Part shown: piece after piece, positions 8,071-35,831 of the stretch | Layout: the number at the start of each line of letters is the position of its first letter | Position numbering within the stretch: the first letter of the stretch is position 1 | Assembly (NCBI GenBank): GCA_017656505.1 | Contig: JACDNU010000015.1 | Location: 1-49,371, forward strand | DNA from: Archaeoglobus sp. | GTDB lineage: Archaea > Halobacteriota > Archaeoglobi > Archaeoglobales > Archaeoglobaceae | Direction: 5' to 3' | Length of the DNA stretch: 49,371 nt | Notes under the pieces: generated by a model | Seen by the model: the letters and a program-made list of their open reading frames with translations, nothing else | Told to the model about the DNA's origin: nothing | The model's database searches: none | Made by a program: the position numbers and the translations under genes

Positions 8071-8838
8071 TTAGAAAAATGAATCCAACTCCTTCTCCTC
8101 GTCAAAATAGAAGGTCTGAAAATCATAGCCCAATGGATAATACTTGCTCGCCTCGTCGTGAGGTGGATAAAAATGGCCTATGTGGGTGAAAACAATCTTT
8201 TTAGCCCCTATCTCCTCAGCCAGCTTCATAGCAGTTTCAGCGTTCATGTGCTTCCTCAGCCGGAATCCTTCAGGGGCGATCGAATCAACTATGAAAAGGT
8301 CGGGATTCTTGAAAAGTTCAATCGTAGTTTTAGGCAGGTCTTTATTAGTATCGCCGGAGATAACGACTTTGAAATCCTTCCATTCCGCAACAACGCCATG
8401 AGCTTTCCGCAGCGGAGGATGGTTAACATCGCCAAGCGTAAATCGAATTCCTGCTATCTCAAAGGGTTTGTAGCTTTCGACCTCTATCCTGCGATATTTC
8501 ACGAACTGAAGGAATCTTCCTACATCCTCATGGACTTCTCTGGAAGTGTAAACGTTAACGTTCGTTTGCACGCGATAGAAGTCTCCGAATCCGGCGAAGT
8601 GATCATAATGGCTGTGAGTCCAAATTACAGCCTCGACAGAATCCACCTTAGCTTTTAGCAGTTGGGCTCTTAAATCTGGAGAGGTGTCTATGAGAATGTT
8701 CTTTCCCTTATTCTGTATTAAAACTGAGAAGCGAGTTCTCTCCCAGCCCTTGCGCCTTGCATCCTCGCAAGTTTTGCAATGACAGCCGATGACGGGTGTG
8801 CCTGGGGAATCGCCGGTGCCCAGCAAAATAATTTTCAT
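8071..8838 (-). CDS. PhnP-like metallo-beta-lactamase fold hydrolase
   Basis: A 255-residue MBL-fold phosphodiesterase-type protein. The N-terminal GTGDSPGTPVIGCHCKTC (7-24), with the GCxCxxC zinc knuckle, is typical of the PhnP/PqqB branch; the metal motif HSHYDHFAG lies near 95 and SGDTNKD near 160, with a closing THIGH near 220. PhnP hydrolyses 5-phosphoribosyl 1,2-cyclic phosphate, but archaeal homologues have no established substrate and no phn genes are nearby, so only the class is assigned. It follows the AAA ATPase gene by 4 nt and is probably translationally coupled to it. Confidence 0.85.
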   Translation of the reverse strand: MKIILLGTGDSPGTPVIGCHCKTCEDARRKGWERTRFSVLIQNKGKNILIDTSPDLRAQLLKAKVDSVEAVIWTHSHYDHFAGFGDFYRVQTNVNVYTSREVHEDVGRFLQFVKYRRIEVESYKPFEIAGIRFTLGDVNHPPLRKAHGVVAEWKDFKVVISGDTNKDLPKTTIELFKNPDLFIVDSIAPEGFRLRKHMNAETAMKLAEEIGAKKIVFTHIGHFYPPHDEASKYYPLGYDFQTFYFDEEKELDSFF

Positions 8839-8842
8839 GGTA

Positions 8843-10105
8843 TCAGTAGGAAATCTTCAAGTTAAGTCTTTCCCTCACATTGTTTACCGCTTCCACAAGC
8901 AGTTCGTGTTTTACCTTCTCCTCACCACTCAAGAGGGAGTTAAGAACAGCTTCCCTAATAACGAGCTTTATCTCTGCTCCGGTGAAACCCTTCGTGAGCT
9001 TGACAAGCTCTCCGATATCGAAATCCCCCGGAACTTTTGAAAGGGATAGCTCAAAAATCTTCCTCCTTATCTGCTCAGAAGGCTCTGGAAACTCGATTAT
9101 CTTATCAAATCTCCTCCAGACAGCGGAATCAAGCAAGCTTGGATGGTTCGTTGCTGCTATCAGCACAACTCCATCTTCAACGAGATTTATCTCATCAATC
9201 GATTTAAGCAGGGTGTTAACAGCCCTCTTAACAGCCGCATGCTCATCGCTCGTTCTTGTTTTAGCAACGTAATCGAATTCGTCTATGAAAAGGATGCATG
9301 GATTTAGCTTTTTCGCTATCTCGAAAACCTTTTCTATGTTCTTTGACGTCTCCCCAAGAAACTGGCTTGTTATCATTGAAAGCTTTACCTCAACCAAGGG
9401 CAAGTGCAGCTTCTTGCTTAAGGCCCTTGCTGTAGTTGTTTTTCCCGTTCCAGGAGGTCCGATGAAGAGGAGCTTTCCAACCTCGATAACTCCTATTCTT
9501 TCTAGAAAATCTCTCTTTTCGAGGGCAACTTCTATCTTCCTGAACTCCTGAAGCTGGTTCTCATCTAAGGCAACTTCATTAAAATCGACCTTGATGTCTT
9601 CAGGCGAGTAAAGCCTTACAAGTCCAAGCATGTCTGAAGTTTCTTCGTTCTTTTCCAGCTCTGCTATGATGGTCTTAAGCCACTCCTTATCGCTGTATTT
9701 TGGCTTATTTTGCTTTTTAGCCTCTTCATAGGAGACTCCAGCTGAGTCATAGTTCTGGTAGTAGTAAGCCAGAACGGGATTCTTTCTGATCGCATCTATC
9801 CCTCTCTTCAAAAACCATTTGACCGCTAAATCGAAAGAAGTGAGCATGAACTGCCTGTTAAACTCGTTAAAATCCACGAAAGGAAGGGATTTTACGCCTT
9901 CTGTATCTCCGCCATACTTTTTCACGGTATCCAGCTTTACAACAAGCGGGCGGGAAATGCCGTTTTTTCCATAGAAAAGCTTTCTAATCTCTTTTGGAAT
10001 ATCATCCTCATTCAGCTCCTCGAACTTGTTGTAGACTTCTGCCGTCAGCAAGAGTTCGACGACCTTTGTCTGATCCGTCTGATCTGTTTGATCCGTCTGA
10101 TCCAT
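8843..10105 (-). CDS. AAA-family ATPase with (DQT)4 N-terminus
   Basis: A 420-residue protein with one AAA module: Walker A GPPGTGKTT near 220, Walker B CILFIDEFD near 273, sensor-1 AATNHP near 318, arginine-finger region WRRFD and sensor-2 GFTGAEIK near 375. The first 200 residues are not a domain I recognise and contain a YYYQNYDSAG segment. Residues 2-13 are four copies of DQT encoded by a 9-bp tandem repeat. Single-module Cdc48-like ATPases of archaea usually act as unfolding or remodelling hexamers; partners are unknown here. A GAGGTG ribosome binding site precedes the ATG by five bases. It is co-transcribed with the metallo-hydrolase downstream. Confidence 0.88.
   Translation of the reverse strand: MDQTDQTDQTDQTKVVELLLTAEVYNKFEELNEDDIPKEIRKLFYGKNGISRPLVVKLDTVKKYGGDTEGVKSLPFVDFNEFNRQFMLTSFDLAVKWFLKRGIDAIRKNPVLAYYYQNYDSAGVSYEEAKKQNKPKYSDKEWLKTIIAELEKNEETSDMLGLVRLYSPEDIKVDFNEVALDENQLQEFRKIEVALEKRDFLERIGVIEVGKLLFIGPPGTGKTTTARALSKKLHLPLVEVKLSMITSQFLGETSKNIEKVFEIAKKLNPCILFIDEFDYVAKTRTSDEHAAVKRAVNTLLKSIDEINLVEDGVVLIAATNHPSLLDSAVWRRFDKIIEFPEPSEQIRRKIFELSLSKVPGDFDIGELVKLTKGFTGAEIKLVIREAVLNSLLSGEEKVKHELLVEAVNNVRERLNLKISY
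10067..10102. repeat. 9-bp in-frame microrepeat encoding (DQT)4
   Basis: Four near-identical 9-mers (gatccgtct and one- or two-base variants on the plus strand) directly follow the ATG of the AAA ATPase gene and encode DQT four times. Typical of replication slippage in a tolerated protein terminus. Confidence 0.9.
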
Positions 10106-10283
10106 CCAAACACCTCAGGGTTTGAGTTAGTTTAGAGTTGGAAATTTCTCGAATTCAATTTTCTAATTCCAGAACAATCTGGCTCTCATCTTTTAAATTT
10201 TTTGCTAATCATTTGACTGAGGATAGACCAAAGACGGATCAAAGAAAGTAAATATTATTTTCTCAGAGTGGGACATCACCTTG

Positions 10284-10709
10284 ATGAAAGTGCCATGGAG
10301 CAGAATTCACTCCTGGCACTGCGTTGCATGCGGCGAATGCTGCAAACATTTTAAGGTTCCGCTCACTTTCTGGGAGTATCTTCGTTTCAGAAAGCTCGGT
10401 CTCGTTGAGGAGAGGAGGAAGTATTACCTGAGGAAAATTGGCGGGAGATGTCCCTTCCAGATGGGAAGACTTTGCGGAATTCAGGAGAGCAAACCTTTTG
10501 TATGCAAGCTCTTTCCATTCATTATCAGGCAAAAGGGGGATGATTCCGCCCTTTTTTGTTACAACGATGAGGAATACTACGTTTACGTCGACACTTACTG
10601 CAGAAACATCGTTTTCGGAAAACCAAGCTTAAAGTTTAAGGAGATGGTTAGAGAGGCTCTGGACATCTACACTGGCAAGAGATTGAGGCCAAGGTTGCTT
10701 ACATCTTGA
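10284..10709 (+). CDS. YkgJ-type cysteine-cluster protein
   Basis: A 141-residue protein with the CxxCxxCC motif of the YkgJ (UPF0153) family: residues 13-20 read CVACGECC. Further cysteines follow in GGRCPFQMGRLCGIQ and KPFVCKLFPF. The family is thought to bind zinc or an iron-sulfur cluster; no reaction is established. The start is the ATG at 10284; a TTG one codon upstream is less likely. An AT-rich TATA-like element (around 10250) lies about 30 nt upstream. It is divergent from the AAA ATPase gene and just upstream of the TetR gene, from which it is separated by a promoter. Confidence 0.8.
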   Translation: MKVPWSRIHSWHCVACGECCKHFKVPLTFWEYLRFRKLGLVEERRKYYLRKIGGRCPFQMGRLCGIQESKPFVCKLFPFIIRQKGDDSALFCYNDEEYYVYVDTYCRNIVFGKPSLKFKEMVREALDIYTGKRLRPRLLTS

Positions 10710-10726
10710 GTAAACATCTTGGGTAA
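10701..10726. repeat. 13-bp tandem duplication across a stop codon
   Basis: ACATCTTGAGTAA is followed at once by ACATCTTGGGTAA, one mismatch. The first copy contains the TGA stop of the cysteine-cluster gene (10707-10709); in the second copy TGA has become TGG. The duplication lies directly upstream of the TetR promoter. Confidence 0.9.
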
Positions 10727-10729
10727 CAA

Positions 10730-10740
10730 TCTTTTTAAAC
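10730..10740 (+). promoter_or_regulatory. TATA box of the TetR operon
   Basis: TCTTTTTAAAC, an archaeal box A, is centred about 27 nt before the ATG at 10762. It directly abuts the palindromic operator at 10741. Confidence 0.7.
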
Positions 10741-10758
10741 TGATTGAGCGCTCAATCA
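10741..10758. promoter_or_regulatory. Perfect 18-bp palindromic operator of the TetR regulator
   Basis: TGATTGAGCGCTCAATCA is a perfect inverted repeat lying between the TATA box and the start codon of the TetR gene. TGAxTGxxCxxTCA-type palindromes are classic TetR-family operators in fatty-acid and efflux control. Bound protein here would block RNA polymerase at the transcription start, so negative autoregulation is the simplest reading. Confidence 0.8.
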
Positions 10759-10761
10759 ATA

Positions 10762-11253
10762 ATGAAAGAAAAGATTCTCAAGGCTGCACTGAAACTCTAC
10801 TCCTCGAAACCACCCCAGAATGTTACAACGAAAGAGATAGCTAGAGCAGCTGGAGTTTCTGTAGGTTTAATCTTTCATTACTTCCATAGTAAGAATGAGC
10901 TGGAAAGAGAGCTCGTTTCTCACTTCATGGAGAAACATTCGCTCCAAACTGAAAGATTGGATGAATTTGTGAGAGAGAATTTGAGATTCGCCAAGGAAAA
11001 TCCTGGAATATTCAGGTTTTTGCAATACGTTTTTGAGAAAGAAAAGTATGCGGACAGCGATTTGGCGATTAAAGTGTATGAGGATGGGTTAAAAAAGCTG
11101 AAAACTATGCTTGGAGGTGACGAGAGAAAAGCAACTCTTCTGATGGCGATGATAGATGGCTTAGCAATGTATGCGTTCCTTTTAGATCTCGATGTTGAGG
11201 AGTTCAGCGATTCGATTCTGGAGACGCTCGGATTTGGTGGGGAGAATAGGTAG
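10762..11253 (+). CDS. TetR-family transcriptional regulator
   Basis: A 163-residue TetR-type repressor. The N-terminal helix-turn-helix spans about residues 18-45 (TTKEIARAAGVSVGLIFHYF) after the ILKAALKLYSSK helix; the rest is a short all-helical ligand domain containing MAMIDGLAMYAFLLDLD near 125-140. The start is ATG 10762; an in-frame TTG at 10744 falls inside the operator palindrome and upstream of the expected transcription start, so it is rejected. The gene heads an operon with a Yip1-like membrane protein and a membrane polyferredoxin, which it probably controls together with itself. The ligand is unknown. Confidence 0.9.
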   Translation: MKEKILKAALKLYSSKPPQNVTTKEIARAAGVSVGLIFHYFHSKNELERELVSHFMEKHSLQTERLDEFVRENLRFAKENPGIFRFLQYVFEKEKYADSDLAIKVYEDGLKKLKTMLGGDERKATLLMAMIDGLAMYAFLLDLDVEEFSDSILETLGFGGENR

Positions 11254-11255
11254 TC

Positions 11256-11273
11256 AGGTGAGTTAGGTGAGTT
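11256..11273. repeat. AGGTGAGTT tandem duplication carrying the ribosome binding site
   Basis: Two exact copies of AGGTGAGTT lie between the TetR stop and the ATG at 11278. AGGTGA is itself a Shine-Dalgarno sequence, so the duplication gives the membrane-protein gene two ribosome binding sites, at about 7 and 16 nt from the start. Confidence 0.85.
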
Positions 11274-11277
11274 ACAC

Positions 11278-12147
11278 ATGAAATACCTCAATAGAATATA
11301 CGATGAGGCGGATAGGGAGTTCTTGAAACCCCTTTACAGAAATCTCCCTTTCATAGAGGCTGTAGCCGTCATGCTTATTATCAGCAGGGCCATGGCGGAG
11401 AGCATTGAGATATTTCCTTACTCCGTTAGCAAGGCAATCGTAAGCCTTGCAGATAAGTGGGCTTACGCAATTGCACCGCTTGTAGACAAGATTTATGGAT
11501 TCTTTGGTTATGCTTTCTCCCCTGACGTAGCTTTGATGCACAGAATGCCTGCAGAAAATCCGATTTATCCTTTGCCGGTATGGATGATCTCGCTGTGGAG
11601 TTTTTCTGTGGCCTACACACTCTTTTATTGGTTCTCCCTCACTTCAATAACTTATGGTATTGGCAGGCTATTTGGCAGGAATGGGATAAATGAAGGGAGT
11701 GGAAGAAGCGGATCATTTGTAAGGCTGCTTACATGGACGGGGATAGCCCACATACCCATGATCAACTGGTGGTTTTATGTGGGCTGCGAAATGCTCTATG
11801 AGATCGTTAGGCAGGAGATGTATCTAGGTCTAACTCCACCATACACCGTTTCCGCTGTTGAGACAAGTGTTCCGACTCCTCTCGGCTCACTACCCAACTT
11901 CGTCCCGGTTGAAGGCTTTTGGTTTGGCTACGGTATTGGAGTGGCTTTCCTGATGCTAACGATACTGCTGATCTACGGCTTCGTAAAACGTGAATTGGGA
12001 TTGGATCCGTTGAGAACGCTGATTGCAATACTCCCTTGGATAGCTTATTTTGGTTTTTTGCTGGTTGGAAGTCTCAATGTTAATGAGATTACGGGTGTTT
12101 TAAATGCATACGTTGAGCAAGGAAAGGCCTGGAGATGGTTTAGATAG
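11278..12147 (+). CDS. Multi-pass membrane protein, Yip1-like
   Basis: A 289-residue integral membrane protein. Hydrophobic segments are near residues 27-45 (weaker), 98-125, 145-175, 220-240 and 245-265. The GSFVRLLTWTGIAHIPMI segment near 143 resembles the Yip1-domain pattern in which a serine-rich loop is followed by a helix with a conserved proline, so a Yip1-like fold is proposed; confidence in the family is moderate. No metal or redox motif is visible. It sits in the TetR operon and overlaps the following polyferredoxin gene by 44 nt, indicating coupled translation and a likely physical or functional link between the two. Confidence 0.75.
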   Translation: MKYLNRIYDEADREFLKPLYRNLPFIEAVAVMLIISRAMAESIEIFPYSVSKAIVSLADKWAYAIAPLVDKIYGFFGYAFSPDVALMHRMPAENPIYPLPVWMISLWSFSVAYTLFYWFSLTSITYGIGRLFGRNGINEGSGRSGSFVRLLTWTGIAHIPMINWWFYVGCEMLYEIVRQEMYLGLTPPYTVSAVETSVPTPLGSLPNFVPVEGFWFGYGIGVAFLMLTILLIYGFVKRELGLDPLRTLIAILPWIAYFGFLLVGSLNVNEITGVLNAYVEQGKAWRWFR

Positions 12148-12874
12148 GATAGATGAAAGTTTGGATAAGCTCAAGAACGGGATATTTCTTGAGACGGCCA
12201 GAAAGTTGATGAGGGAGATACCTTGGGATCCCATCAGGAAAGTCTTTCTTTTCATCTCGCTGATAATGTTCATAGGAACTATCGCTTACACGGAAGTTAT
12301 GAAAGATCCAACGATTGAATGGGCTTGGTGGTGGCTTTGGTTCGGTTTGTTCCTAACATTTCTCCCTGTTATCATGGGAAGAGTTGCGTGCGGATGGTTT
12401 TGCCCTTATGCAGCCATCCACGACATATTTTTTACGAAATTGAAATACAGAAGAGCTAAATGGCCGGGTAATCTCAAGAATCTGAGATTTTTGGTGCTTT
12501 TCGGGTTGCTTGGATTGCTCGCAACCGTGGAAATATTCCGGGAATGGGACTTCTTTATCTGGTACTGCAGAGCATATTTGATCTTGGCCGTGGTTTGGGG
12601 TTTCATTTTTGCTCCAAGGGATTGGTGCAGGTACGTTTGCGTTCTGGGAGCTTATGCCCAGCTTTACTCGAGAATCAGAGTTCTTGGCATAAAAGTTGAC
12701 GAGAAACTTTGCCTTAGATGTGAAAACTGTGAGTGCGATAAGAATTGCCCGATGGATGTTGACTGGAAAAATGGGGTTAAAGAAAGGTGGATAACGCCCG
12801 ATTACTGCGTACTGTGCCTTAATTGCGTTAACGTATGCCGTTCGGGAGCGGTTTACGCATGGAGGGTGCATTGA
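12104..12874 (+). CDS. NapH/CcoG-like membrane 4Fe-4S polyferredoxin
   Basis: A 256-residue membrane iron-sulfur protein. Hydrophobic helices lie near 47-62, 72-92, 127-145 and 152-170. C96/C100 in CGWFCPY and C175/C179 in WCRYVCVLGA are the paired CxxxC motifs of NapH, NosR and CcoG, although the second lacks the usual proline after its last cysteine. The cytoplasmic tail carries two ferredoxin-like sites: C203, C206, C209, C211, C215 (the spacing is two residues longer than usual and includes an extra cysteine) and C235, C238, C241, C245. Such proteins pass electrons between the quinone pool and soluble or exported partners. No reductase gene is adjacent. A GGTG element six bases before the ATG supports the overlapping start. 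Confidence 0.85.
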   Translation: MHTLSKERPGDGLDRIDESLDKLKNGIFLETARKLMREIPWDPIRKVFLFISLIMFIGTIAYTEVMKDPTIEWAWWWLWFGLFLTFLPVIMGRVACGWFCPYAAIHDIFFTKLKYRRAKWPGNLKNLRFLVLFGLLGLLATVEIFREWDFFIWYCRAYLILAVVWGFIFAPRDWCRYVCVLGAYAQLYSRIRVLGIKVDEKLCLRCENCECDKNCPMDVDWKNGVKERWITPDYCVLCLNCVNVCRSGAVYAWRVH

Positions 12875-12939
12875 TCACGTTTGAGAAAGACTGAGAAAAC
12901 TGAGAAAGCAGAAAAGCAGAAGTAAGAAATCAAAGAAAA

Positions 12940-13758
12940 TCAGAAATCCAAAACGTAATCCTTCAAAATATCCCTTAAGGACACGACATCTCCAATAACT
13001 ATCACTGCTGGAGCTCTAACTTTCTCTTTCTTAGCAATCTCGACTATATTTGAAAGCTTTCCCTCCACAACTCTCTGATCTGGAGTTGTTGCTTTTTCTA
13101 TTATCGCAACAGGAGTGTCAGGACGCTTTCCACCTTTCAGCAATCTGCTAATGTTTCTTTCAAGATTTGAGATACCCATAAGGATAACTATCGTCGCATC
13201 GAGCTTTGCGATCTCTTCCCAATTTATCCTTTCTTTTTCTTTTTTTCCTTCTTCTTCTTTCGCATCTAAGCTCTCTCTCTCCTTCCCGGTGAGAATAAGA
13301 ATTGCAGGAGAAAATCTTCGGTGGTTCAATGGAATACCAGCATACGCCGGAGCTGCAATAGCTGAAGAGATGCCTGGCACAACAATAAAGCTAACACCCT
13401 CCTTTGCCAGGAATTCTGCTTCTTCGCCCCCTCTACCAAAAACGAACGGATCTCCTCCTTTCACCCTTGCAACCTTCTTCCCTTCCTTCGCTAACTTAAC
13501 CAAAAGCTGGTTTATCTCATCCTGGGTTTTCTTATGCCTGCCCTCTCTTTTTCCGGCCTCTATTATTTCGCTTATCTTACACTCTTTTTTGATGAAATTC
13601 TTTATTTCATCTCCAACCAGATCATCAACTAAAGCCACGTCTGCCTCTTTGATGTATTTCACCGCTTTCAGCGTTAATAACTCAATGTCACCCGGTCCGG
13701 CACCAATCAGATAAACGATCCCCTGCTTCTCGGATTTATCCAATTTAGATTTATCCAT
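12940..13758 (-). CDS. cobA: Uroporphyrinogen-III C-methyltransferase (SUMT)
   Basis: A 272-residue SAM-dependent methyltransferase that methylates uroporphyrinogen III at C2 and C7 to precorrin-2, the branch point to siroheme, B12 and, in these archaea, haem made through siroheme. Motifs: VYLIGAGPGD near 15, RVKGGDPFVFGRGGEE near 98 (the signature of the family) and VPGISSA near 125. A lysine/glutamate-rich insert near 162-173 (EEEGKKEKER) is unusual. It is the last gene of the hemA-hemB-hemL-hemC-cobA operon, 9 nt after hemC. Confidence 0.94.
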   Translation of the reverse strand: MDKSKLDKSEKQGIVYLIGAGPGDIELLTLKAVKYIKEADVALVDDLVGDEIKNFIKKECKISEIIEAGKREGRHKKTQDEINQLLVKLAKEGKKVARVKGGDPFVFGRGGEEAEFLAKEGVSFIVVPGISSAIAAPAYAGIPLNHRRFSPAILILTGKERESLDAKEEEGKKEKERINWEEIAKLDATIVILMGISNLERNISRLLKGGKRPDTPVAIIEKATTPDQRVVEGKLSNIVEIAKKEKVRAPAVIVIGDVVSLRDILKDYVLDF

Positions 13759-32654: not shown

Positions 32655-32672
32655 CGTTAGGTTAACCTAACG
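32655..32672. promoter_or_regulatory. Perfect 18-bp palindromic operator of the DtxR-like regulator
   Basis: CGTTAGGTTAACCTAACG is a perfect palindrome between the TATA box and the start codon. Its TTAGGTTA/TAACCTAA halves strongly resemble the DtxR/IdeR/MntR consensus. It explains autoregulation and control of the metal ABC transporter that follows. Confidence 0.85.
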
Positions 32673-32674
32673 TC

Positions 32675-33133
32675 GTGCGTGAGATATACATCCGCTTGGC
32701 TTATAAGGCTTTGAGGGAGGGAATCGATGTAGTCGGGCCCAGCTACTTTTCCAGCAAGCTCGGCATCTCAAAACCAACTGCTCAAGAAGCTTTGATCAGG
32801 CTGGCGGAACAGAACTTGGGGGAGTACATTCCAAAAAAAGGCTTTAGATTGAACAGAACTGGTATAGAGAGAGCTAGAGAGCTTACAAAAAAGCACCGCC
32901 TGATGGAATGTCTTTTCTATGAACTCGGAATGCCACCAGAGAATGCATGCAGAGAAGCAACAAGGCTTGAGGAACATGCAAGTCCCGAGCTAATCAATCT
33001 TTTGAAGACAATCTTCATTAACCGTGAGCTATGCCCGTGCGGGAACAGGATAGAGGAAGGAATAGAGGAAGGGTTAGGGGAAGGGATAGATGAGGAGATA
33101 GGTGAGGGGATAGAGGAGGGTTTGGATGATTAG
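32675..33133 (+). CDS. DtxR/MntR-family metalloregulator with Gly/Glu-rich tail
   Basis: A 152-residue repressor. Residues 1-60 form a winged helix (FSSKLGISKPTAQEALIRLAE, then KKGFRLNRTG wing). Residues 70-125 resemble the DtxR dimerisation/metal domain: KKHRLMECLFYE (H74, E78), then a CREATRLEEHASPEL segment (C92, E94, E99, E100, H101) and CPCGNRI (C120, C122). By eye the metal ligand set is not the DtxR or MntR standard. The SH3-like C-terminal domain is missing; instead residues 127-152 are a Gly/Glu/Asp-rich low-complexity tail encoded by imperfect tandem repeats. Start GTG 32675, directly after the palindrome, leaderless. It overlaps the transporter gene by 8 nt. Confidence 0.85.
   Translation: MREIYIRLAYKALREGIDVVGPSYFSSKLGISKPTAQEALIRLAEQNLGEYIPKKGFRLNRTGIERARELTKKHRLMECLFYELGMPPENACREATRLEEHASPELINLLKTIFINRELCPCGNRIEEGIEEGLGEGIDEEIGEGIEEGLDD
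33048..33128. repeat. Purine-rich GGGATAGAGGAA-type tandem repeats
   Basis: Six to seven degenerate 12-nt units encoding GIEEGL-type repeats at the end of the metalloregulator gene. Strand is almost pure purine over 80 nt. Confidence 0.75.
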
Positions 33134-34106
33134 GAAATTCGTGAACTCGGTTTTCTTCATTTTCATCGTTTTTCTACCTCAGTCTGCCGTAGCTCTTGAT
33201 ATCGTTTGCACGAATCCGGATTTCGTTCCGATAGTAAAGGAGATTGGGGGCAGTGAAGTAAGCGTAACGTCTCTTCTCCCTCCTGGAAGCGATCCCCATT
33301 CTTTCTCCATTTCAAAATCCGATATGGATCGACTGAAAGCTTCTGATCTTATCATTCTTACGAATTCGGAGCTTTTCAGTTTTGAAAAAAAGATAAAAGC
33401 TGAATACGCTGAGAAAGTCTTGGATTTCAGTGACTACTCCGCGGAAGGAGCAAGGCTCGACGACTTTCCGGGTTTCAGAAATAATCCCCATGGATACTGG
33501 CTGAAAATTGAAAATGCCGTCTCCATTGCTAGGGCAGTAGAAAAAAAGCTTTCTAGGTTATATCCTGAGAAAAAGGATTATTTCGGCAAGAACCTCGAAC
33601 TTTTTGTGGAGAAAATGGATGATCTGAAAGAAGTTTCTTCAAAGGTGGTTGGAGTAAATTACGGAAAGAATACCAGCTGCTTAGCAGTCATTCCAGGGGT
33701 AACCTACATAATCGAGAATGCTGGTTTGAGAGTTGGAGCGGTTCTTATGGGAGAGGGGTTGGGTTTTGCAAGCGGGAAAGAGTATGCTGAAATTCAGGAT
33801 AAGCTTAAGTCGGATGAACTTTCGTGCATAGTCGTTCCGGAATCGATGAAGAAGTCTAAAGCGGGAGAGATCGCTGAGCAGCTCTCTAGAGATTCTGGAA
33901 AGCCTGTCGTTTACGTTAAGTTTGTCGTTGGAGCTCAGGATGTTGATTATTCTGAGATACAGATTTATAATTTAATCGCGTTTGCGAAAGCCTTTAGTGT
34001 AACCAAAAGTGAGTCCATAGCTAGCAGTCAGGAGTTGTTATATATTCTGATTCTCATGGTTTTAATTGAGGCAGCAGTGATTGTATTCCTATGGAGGGCA
34101 GGCTGA
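33126..34106 (+). CDS. ZnuA-like metal-binding protein, membrane-anchored
   Basis: A 326-residue cluster-A-I substrate-binding protein for zinc or manganese. Signal peptide 1-23 (cleavage after AVA); mature part with DPHSF (His58) and NPHGYW (His122), two of the usual metal ligands. The region that should hold the third His (FHxAYxYF type) reads CLAVIPGVTYIIEN, without His, and the fourth acidic position is uncertain. A C-terminal transmembrane helix (about 303-323) anchors the protein outside the membrane, replacing the lipid anchor of bacteria. It overlaps the DtxR-like gene by 8 nt and precedes the transporter subunits. Confidence 0.87.
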   Translation: MIRKFVNSVFFIFIVFLPQSAVALDIVCTNPDFVPIVKEIGGSEVSVTSLLPPGSDPHSFSISKSDMDRLKASDLIILTNSELFSFEKKIKAEYAEKVLDFSDYSAEGARLDDFPGFRNNPHGYWLKIENAVSIARAVEKKLSRLYPEKKDYFGKNLELFVEKMDDLKEVSSKVVGVNYGKNTSCLAVIPGVTYIIENAGLRVGAVLMGEGLGFASGKEYAEIQDKLKSDELSCIVVPESMKKSKAGEIAEQLSRDSGKPVVYVKFVVGAQDVDYSEIQIYNLIAFAKAFSVTKSESIASSQELLYILILMVLIEAAVIVFLWRAG

Positions 34107-34178
34107 AATTGAAAAAATCGAAGTTGAAAATTGAAGCTGAAAAATTGTTGAAATCCCAATTAACAAAAAGGTGATAAG

Positions 34179-34988
34179 ATGAAGCTAAATTCAACCGAGG
34201 AAAAGCTGAACACGAATGCGATAGTGGCAAATGGTGTTGAATTCGGATACAACGATCAATCCATCCTCTCAGATATAACTTTCCAAGTAAAGAAGGGAGA
34301 ATTTGTCGCCATCACTGGGCCAAACGGTTCTGGAAAGACGACCTTGCTTAAACTCATTCTTGGAATTCTCCAGCCGAGAAAGGGTGAAATAGTTGTGATG
34401 GGTTACAACACGAGAGAAAAGGAAAAGATAATGAGCCTGGCAGGCTTCATGCCTCAGAAAGAGCATATTTCTACGAATTTTCCGATTCTCGTTAAGGATG
34501 TCGTAATGCTCGGCTTGGGTGCGAGGAGGGGAATTGTGAAATCGGGAAAAGCGTACGAGAGGGAAGGAATCGAAGCAATAAAGGCTGTCGGGCTGAAGGA
34601 TGAAATTTGGAATAAGAGGTTTGCGGAGTTGAGTGGTGGTCAGCAACAGAGAGTCCTCCTCGCCAGAGCACTCGCAATTAAGCCGAAAATCCTTTTATTG
34701 GACGAACCATTCAATGGAGTAGATATCCCGAGCCAGAACAAGATTATTGAGCTTCTCTCAGAACTGAAGGAGAAGGATGTTACAGTTTTGCTCGTAATCC
34801 ACAACGTGAATCCCCTTTTACATGAAATCGACAAGATAATGCTGCTTAACCGAAGAATAATCGCATTTGGGAAACCAGATGAGATTTTTACGGAAGAGAA
34901 TCTGATCGCAACTTATGGTGCTTCAATCCCGATAATCTACTGCGAGGAAGGCTTTGCACATCCCGTTTACAGCGACATTCACGGTTAA
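34179..34988 (+). CDS. Metal ABC transporter ATPase
   Basis: A 269-residue ABC ATPase: Walker A GPNGSGKTT near 49, Q-loop MPQKEH near 95, signature LSGGQQQRVLLARAL near 150, Walker B ILLLDEPFNGVD near 172 and the H-loop VIHNVN near 205. ZnuC/MntB-like by sequence and context. AAAGGTGATAAG stands directly before the ATG. The 72-nt gap after the binding-protein gene contains imperfect GAAGTTGAAAATTGAAG repeats. Confidence 0.92.
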   Translation: MKLNSTEEKLNTNAIVANGVEFGYNDQSILSDITFQVKKGEFVAITGPNGSGKTTLLKLILGILQPRKGEIVVMGYNTREKEKIMSLAGFMPQKEHISTNFPILVKDVVMLGLGARRGIVKSGKAYEREGIEAIKAVGLKDEIWNKRFAELSGGQQQRVLLARALAIKPKILLLDEPFNGVDIPSQNKIIELLSELKEKDVTVLLVIHNVNPLLHEIDKIMLLNRRIIAFGKPDEIFTEENLIATYGASIPIIYCEEGFAHPVYSDIHG

Positions 34989-35000
34989 GAGGGGGAGAGG

Positions 35001-35831
35001 ATGGATCTCTCGGTTTGGTCGAGTTTATCTCAGCCATACATGCAGAGGGCTATTGCCGGGGTTGTTATAATTGCGATAAACGCTGCTGTAGCTGGTTCTT
35101 TTACCGTATTCAGGAACGTCTCCTTTTTGGTAGCCGGAGCAAGTCACTCTGCTTTAGCTGGGGCAGCCCTCTTCATTCTCTTAGGTTTTTATGGCTTTCA
35201 CGGATTCTTCAGCAATCCGCTTATCGGAGCTATGCTCTTCGCGATCGCAACCGCTTTGATCGCAGCATATGCACCTAGGGAGGAAACGAACACCGCAATA
35301 GGGATCTCATTTGCAATGTCTATGAGTTTGGCCATCCTCTTCATTTCGATGATAAGGGAGTATGCTGCAAAGGTTTGGGGTCTGCTCATCGGGGATCTTT
35401 TTCTGCTAACGTATGAAGATCTCTATCTAATGACCTTCGTGACCTTTGTGACTCTTATTCTGGCAATGCTCTTTTACAGAGCTTTTCTCTTCATCTCTTT
35501 CGACTGCGAAGGTGCAACAGCCTTTGGATTGAATACGAAGGGTTACAACTACCTTTTGCTATCCATCATAGCCGTTTCAGCGGTAATGCTCTTGAAAGGA
35601 GTTGGGGCTATCTTGGTTTTTGCGATGCTCGTAGCTCCTGCAGCTGCAGCAAATGAGCTTGCCTCAAACATAAAGAACGTTTTTATCTTCGCTTTCATAA
35701 TCGCCCTGTTTAGCGGATTCGCGGGCATAGCAATATCTTTCCCCTTTGAAGTCTCCCCGGGAGCGATTGCATCACTTCTTGCGACGATGATTTACTTCCT
35801 CAGCTTCCTTGGCAAAAAATTGAGAGGGTAG
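35001..35831 (+). CDS. Metal ABC transporter permease
   Basis: A 276-residue ABC-3 family permease with about eight transmembrane helices. Typical features are the N-terminal QRAIAGVVII helix, SFLVAGASHSALAGAAL near 50, KVWGLLIGDLF near 128 and the LLKGVGAILVFAMLVAPAAAA motif near 195, which includes the conserved cytoplasmic coupling region. GGGGGAGAGG stands before the ATG. Last gene of the metal-regulated operon. Confidence 0.92.
   Translation: MDLSVWSSLSQPYMQRAIAGVVIIAINAAVAGSFTVFRNVSFLVAGASHSALAGAALFILLGFYGFHGFFSNPLIGAMLFAIATALIAAYAPREETNTAIGISFAMSMSLAILFISMIREYAAKVWGLLIGDLFLLTYEDLYLMTFVTFVTLILAMLFYRAFLFISFDCEGATAFGLNTKGYNYLLLSIIAVSAVMLLKGVGAILVFAMLVAPAAAANELASNIKNVFIFAFIIALFSGFAGIAISFPFEVSPGAIASLLATMIYFLSFLGKKLRG

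Follow-up and report, generated by a model that had tools for sequence, protein, structure and literature searches.

A TetR-headed cassette for a NapH-type membrane polyferredoxin and a remote Yip1 relative in Archaeoglobus: a candidate inducible electron-transfer accessory

Membrane polyferredoxins of the NapH/MauN type (TIGR02163) combine a four-helix core with two cysteine pairs and two C-terminal 4Fe-4S sites, and their cofactors are predicted to be cytoplasmic. In Wolinella, NapH takes electrons from menaquinol toward the periplasmic nitrate reductase (PMC5928378), while NapH homologues of ANME archaea have been discussed as oxidisers of quinol or methanophenazine, orphan NapH-like genes being common in archaea, ANME genomes included (PMC9012536). 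Such orphans are scattered through the archaea without an assigned job. The CcoG/FixG proteins are likewise membrane proteins with two 4Fe-4S clusters; CcoG is not itself a respiratory enzyme, reduces Cu(II) and has an effect on copper tolerance (PMC7558416). Genes for archaeal proteins of the Yip1 family (PF04893, arCOG02054) are found in cassettes that also encode other small membrane proteins, and the Yip1 proteins have been implicated in membrane processes (PMC5898192).

The window analysed here is the whole 49,371-nucleotide stretch of contig JACDNU010000015.1 from an Archaeoglobus sp. genome assembly (GCA_017656505.1; 2.52 Mb, 95 contigs). At 10762-12874 it holds three co-oriented genes, for a TetR regulator, a multi-pass membrane protein and a NapH-type membrane polyferredoxin. 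The ORFs bear out the operon-like unit proposed in the initial annotation, and the genes are neighbours again in the Archaeoglobales MAG B4_G15. The features, with cysteines compared at loci L034 and L035, are as follows.

About 10731-10739: TATA-like CTTTTTAAA, just upstream of the palindrome
10741..10758, no strand: putative TetR autoregulatory operator, the perfect 18-bp palindrome TGATTGAGCGCTCAATCA, conserved and genome-unique
10762..11253, + strand: TetR-family regulator, 163 aa (PF00440 match)
11278..12147, + strand: multi-pass membrane protein, 289 aa, remote Yip1-domain relative over residues 113-263 (hhalign)
12104..12874, + strand: NapH/MauN-type membrane polyferredoxin, 256 aa from the first ATG (TIGR02163, Fer4/Fer4_5)
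12389..12406, + strand: first CxxxCP motif, C96GWFC100P; cysteines invariant in L034 and L035
12626..12640, + strand: second CxxxC, C175RYVC179, followed by V and not P; cysteines invariant in L034 and L035
12710..12751, + strand: first C-terminal 4Fe-4S site, C203-x2-C206-x2-C209-x-C211-x3-C215-P; four cysteines aligned with the L035 site
12806..12841, + strand: second C-terminal 4Fe-4S site, C235-x2-C238-x2-C241-x3-C245, followed by R, no proline; standard spacing, cysteines invariant in L034 and L035
L034:793-1122, B4_G15 contig QMZD01000221.1: H-NOX remnant with a frameshift, broken up by a DDE transposase gene

Counted from the first ATG of the polyferredoxin, the two membrane protein ORFs share 12104-12147, which is the 44-nt overlap noted at the outset, and B4_G15 keeps both this ATG and the open frame through the overlap; alternative starts may lie at TTG 12113 or TTG 12161. 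A search for the trio in other archaeal genomes, suggested together with the initial annotation, found it in synteny only in B4_G15 (about 80% complete), at the same place and split over two contigs, so that the cassette is so far known from two related heat-loving archaea. Profile searches with the middle protein matched 2 of 393 genomes of the phylum; bacterial genomes were covered by one pattern-limited scan with the polyferredoxin as query. Between the two genomes the middle protein is 88% identical (dN/dS 0.067) and the polyferredoxin 86-89% identical (dN/dS 0.056), so that purifying selection on both is strong. Because they are conserved in this sister genome at a dN/dS of about 0.06, the trio goes beyond a chance arrangement: it is real and selected, and is made of protein types whose families are already known. 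In the congeners G001, G002 and G003 the CxxCxxCC and SUMT genes that flank the cassette adjoin each other, 20-187 bp apart, and the pair, missing between them, is therefore accessory. Gain in the lineage of the window and B4_G15 is the simplest reading of this distribution, though the cassette may instead have been lost in G003.

The polyferredoxin matches the Fer4/Fer4_5 models of Pfam and the NapH/MauN model TIGR02163 at 50.3 bits (E=2.3e-13) against a cut-off of 213 bits, and by this comparison it is homologous to NapH/MauN while standing outside the curated subfamily. The NapH half of the proposed NapH/CcoG likeness is thus borne out at the level of homology; for the CcoG half, no CcoG model appeared among the 25 best NCBIfam matches listed, and no cco or copper gene lies in the annotated neighbourhood of the trio. 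From hydropathy and charge pattern, the protein is predicted to cross the membrane about four times, N-in/C-in, with the cysteine pairs and the C-terminal 4Fe-4S sites on the positive, cytoplasmic side; structure prediction from a shallow alignment gave a pLDDT of about 40, which is too low for the model to be of use. As first described, there are two CxxxC pairs, and where NapH/MauN proteins carry two CX3CP motifs, the trio protein has CGWFCP and, without the proline, CRYVCV, a loss that is also seen in the NapH-like protein L045. Both C-terminal four-cysteine sites are present too, and the earlier observation that one has non-standard spacing and a fifth cysteine holds: C209 falls in a 2-residue insertion relative to L035, which leaves C203, C206, C211 and C215 as the likely ligands. 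Beyond the genus, its closest NapH-like relatives share 31-36% identity with it, most of them being orphans. Neither NapG/NapA nor Mau structural genes lie beside the polyferredoxin in the window annotation or in B4_G15, again in difference from NapH/MauN systems.

Less can be said for the Yip1 likeness of the middle protein. Pfam gave no match at E<=1, the gathering score of PF04893 thus not being reached, and an HMMER profile that we built from the Yip1 genes of related genomes scored it at 9-14 bits only. Alignment of residues 113-263 to the same family-built Yip1 alignment, including a core of the GSFxRxLxxTGxAxxP type, reached an hhalign probability of 63-68, while among about 130 unrelated membrane ORFs the highest value was 25. 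The protein is therefore best described as a remote relative of Yip1, judged from profile similarity, and not as a proven member, so that the initial assignment is kept in this weaker form. It differs from archaeal Yip1 proteins, whose genes sit in small-membrane-protein cassettes (PMC5898192), in that it lies below Pfam detection, has 289 aa and is encoded next to a polyferredoxin. Its AlphaFold2 model has a pLDDT of 42, the alignments for the two membrane proteins holding only 2 and 3 sequences. Relatives were sought in plasmid and viral collections, with none found; a Yip1-like neighbour was sought around 20 distant NapH-like genes (0/20) and a NapH-like gene beside 30 Yip1 genes (0/30).

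The regulator is a clear TetR-family member (TetR_N, PF00440, E=1.4e-14, 54 bits against a cut-off of 24), with 3egq as its closest solved structure (E=5.6e-18). It is 73-75% identical to the B4_G15 copy and 39-48% identical to the closest TetR proteins of other members of the family and order. Between the TATA-like CTTTTTAAA and the TetR ATG at 10762 sits the palindrome TGATTGAGCGCTCAATCA, in the position of an operator at the regulator's own promoter. It is unchanged in B4_G15 despite diverged neighbouring bases, has a single match in its own genome at up to 3 mismatches, and at up to 2 mismatches is found in 2 of the 55 family genomes; a search of its own genome and the family genomes for additional copies, as a regulon pointing to an acceptor, found none. 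Because the palindrome is identical in the relative and unique in the genome, this TetR protein probably represses the cassette only, through TGATTGAGCGCTCAATCA as a putative operator. The earlier suggestion that a small molecule induces the operon through TetR fares well here, as a dedicated operator is consistent with a repressor that controls itself and is released by a small ligand, two properties that we infer. The window holds two perfect 18-bp palindromes; the other, CGTTAGGTTAACCTAACG at 32655-32672, lies 2 nt upstream of the start of a DtxR-type regulator gene (32675-33133) that heads a ZnuA/ABC metal-uptake operon (33126-35831).

Related TetR proteins in the family (34-48% identity) mostly have, at the same start-codon position, TGACTGACCGGTCAGTCA or a close variant of this palindrome, and most of those inspected (L138-L143 and L146) head an operon for a secreted CARDB protein, an ABC ATPase and an FtsX permease, while L144 and L145 head no exporter. 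The trio thus shares with these Archaeoglobi exporter operons (for example L138, L141 and L146) a homologous regulator and a palindrome at the start codon, and differs from them in its operator, TGATTGAGCGCTCAATCA in place of TGACTGACCGGTCAGTCA, and in controlling a redox pair instead of an exporter. Both kinds of TetR are present in B4_G15. Searches of the window genome matched neither the exporter-type operator nor, at close similarity, the secreted protein of the exporter; 5/5 congeners have the two, and the exporter operon appears to be missing from the window genome. In a TetR tree that includes the congeners' exporter-type proteins from G005 only, the forks around the trio TetR are not well supported and give it no firm sister group.

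A second parallel comes from three family members (L050, L053 and L054), where two half-length ArsP_1 permease genes are followed by a NapH-like gene and, in L050 and L053, are preceded by an HTH/ArsR-type regulator. Like the cassette, these clusters join a regulator (L050, L053), multi-pass membrane genes and a NapH-like gene; they differ in that the permease is ArsP_1 and not Yip1, and the L054 NapH-like protein is 25% identical to the trio polyferredoxin. An AAA ATPase gene and the CxxCxxCC gene, which has matches in 54/55 family genomes, flank the trio on the left, and a tetrapyrrole operon (SUMT, hemC, hemL, hemB, hemA), convergent with it, on the right. The annotated genes of the window, apart from about 9 kb at its right end, include no nap, nos, cco or other terminal reductase, in agreement with what had been noted; this is not striking in itself, as NapH-like genes commonly stand as orphans in archaea. 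In B4_G15 a remnant of an H-NOX gene (HNOB, E=9e-21) lies directly downstream of the polyferredoxin on the same strand, and since it shares its contig with the polyferredoxin, SUMT and hemC, it is no binning artefact. It is the sole H-NOX gene in the 55 family genomes, the window genome has none, and a search on plasmids found none. This one broken gene hints at a link between the cassette and NO or O2.

Taken together, we tentatively favour, at somewhat less than an even chance, a lineage-specific, self-repressed and hence inducible membrane electron-transfer accessory with a role in detoxification or stress, the detoxifying part being drawn by analogy from the contexts of relatives. Seated on the palindrome that separates the TATA box from the start codon, a TetR dimer would block its own operon until a small-molecule ligand bound the repressor and released it. 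The operon would then yield a NapH-type protein that is predicted to span the membrane with four helices and to expose its CxxxC pairs and its two C-terminal 4Fe-4S clusters to the cytoplasm, and that could move electrons between ferredoxin in the cytoplasm and the membrane or menaquinone pool. The Yip1-like protein, to judge from gene coupling only, may be its membrane partner and present or export the substrate, and the most likely role of the whole would be to reduce or dispose of a toxic or stress compound at the membrane. We count in support the palindrome at the TetR start, the exporter context of relatives, selection, the lack of the pair in three congeners, the kept overlap, the helix pattern, the ArsP_1 analogue and the H-NOX remnant; against it count the presence of the pair in two genomes only and the fact that not all TetR relatives head exporters. 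The uncharacterised redox system of the initial annotation retains its membrane protein with predicted clusters, and as no acceptor was found, the system around that protein is something we infer.

The most serious competitor, which we consider unlikely, is a respiratory shuttle in which the NapH-like protein oxidises menaquinol, or feeds the pool from ferredoxin, for a reductase encoded elsewhere, with the Yip1-like protein as anchor and TetR sensing a metabolite that marks the acceptor. The route from menaquinol to the nitrate reductase in Wolinella (PMC5928378) and the quinol or methanophenazine oxidisers of ANME archaea (PMC9012536) are precedents for it. However, the cassette is missing in most family members, no reductase shares TGATTGAGCGCTCAATCA within 3 mismatches because the operator is genome-unique, and no NapG-like or haem partner gene stands beside the polyferredoxin; being absent from most relatives and standing alone, the cassette does not look like an energy-conserving respiratory complex. 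Metal handling after the manner of CcoG, in which a metal ion such as Cu(II) is reduced at the cysteine pairs and clusters and moved with the help of the Yip1-like protein, would fit the Cu(II) reduction and copper tolerance seen with that two-cluster protein (PMC7558416) and the family NapH-like genes that adjoin ArsP_1 half-permeases and an ArsR-type regulator, yet the regulator here is a TetR and not of a metal-sensing type, the polyferredoxin matches NapH/MauN models, and the annotated neighbourhood is without a copper gene, which makes this account improbable.

We give similarly little weight to an NO or oxygen stress module, in which the cassette once ended in an H-NOX gene, broken in B4_G15 and lost in the window, and protected iron-sulphur or haem metabolism. 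The position of the remnant directly behind the polyferredoxin and its contig shared with SUMT and hemC speak for it, but it is known from one genome only, is absent from the window genome, and, frameshifted and transposase-interrupted, may have had its own promoter. That the trio is a dispensable passenger, a mobile or decaying accessory pair with no fixed role in its host, would agree with its occurrence in two MAGs only, the empty site in three congeners and the transposase inserted beside the cassette in B4_G15; the low dN/dS of both membrane genes (0.06), a sign of strong purifying selection, already disfavours this, as does the operator conserved exactly in B4_G15, and we regard it as improbable too. 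A bolder version of the redox idea, namely a new type of inducible archaeal redox module in which a NapH-type polyferredoxin has a Yip1-domain protein as its obligate partner, so that the Yip1 fold would gain a redox role, possibly with H-NOX-linked control by gas sensing, also seems to us a long shot.

On the favoured reading of an inducible accessory, the cassette would be a rare hint at the role of prokaryotic Yip1-type proteins, and since its polyferredoxin is accompanied by a switch of its own, by a single predicted operator and by one dedicated membrane partner, the function of this protein is directly testable through the compound that releases the repressor. Finally, across window positions 8071-13758 compared with B4_G15, synonymous divergence (pS) is about 0.8 in genes up to TetR but only about 0.55 in those for the Yip1-like protein, the polyferredoxin and SUMT, and this drop after TetR could mark a recombination boundary.
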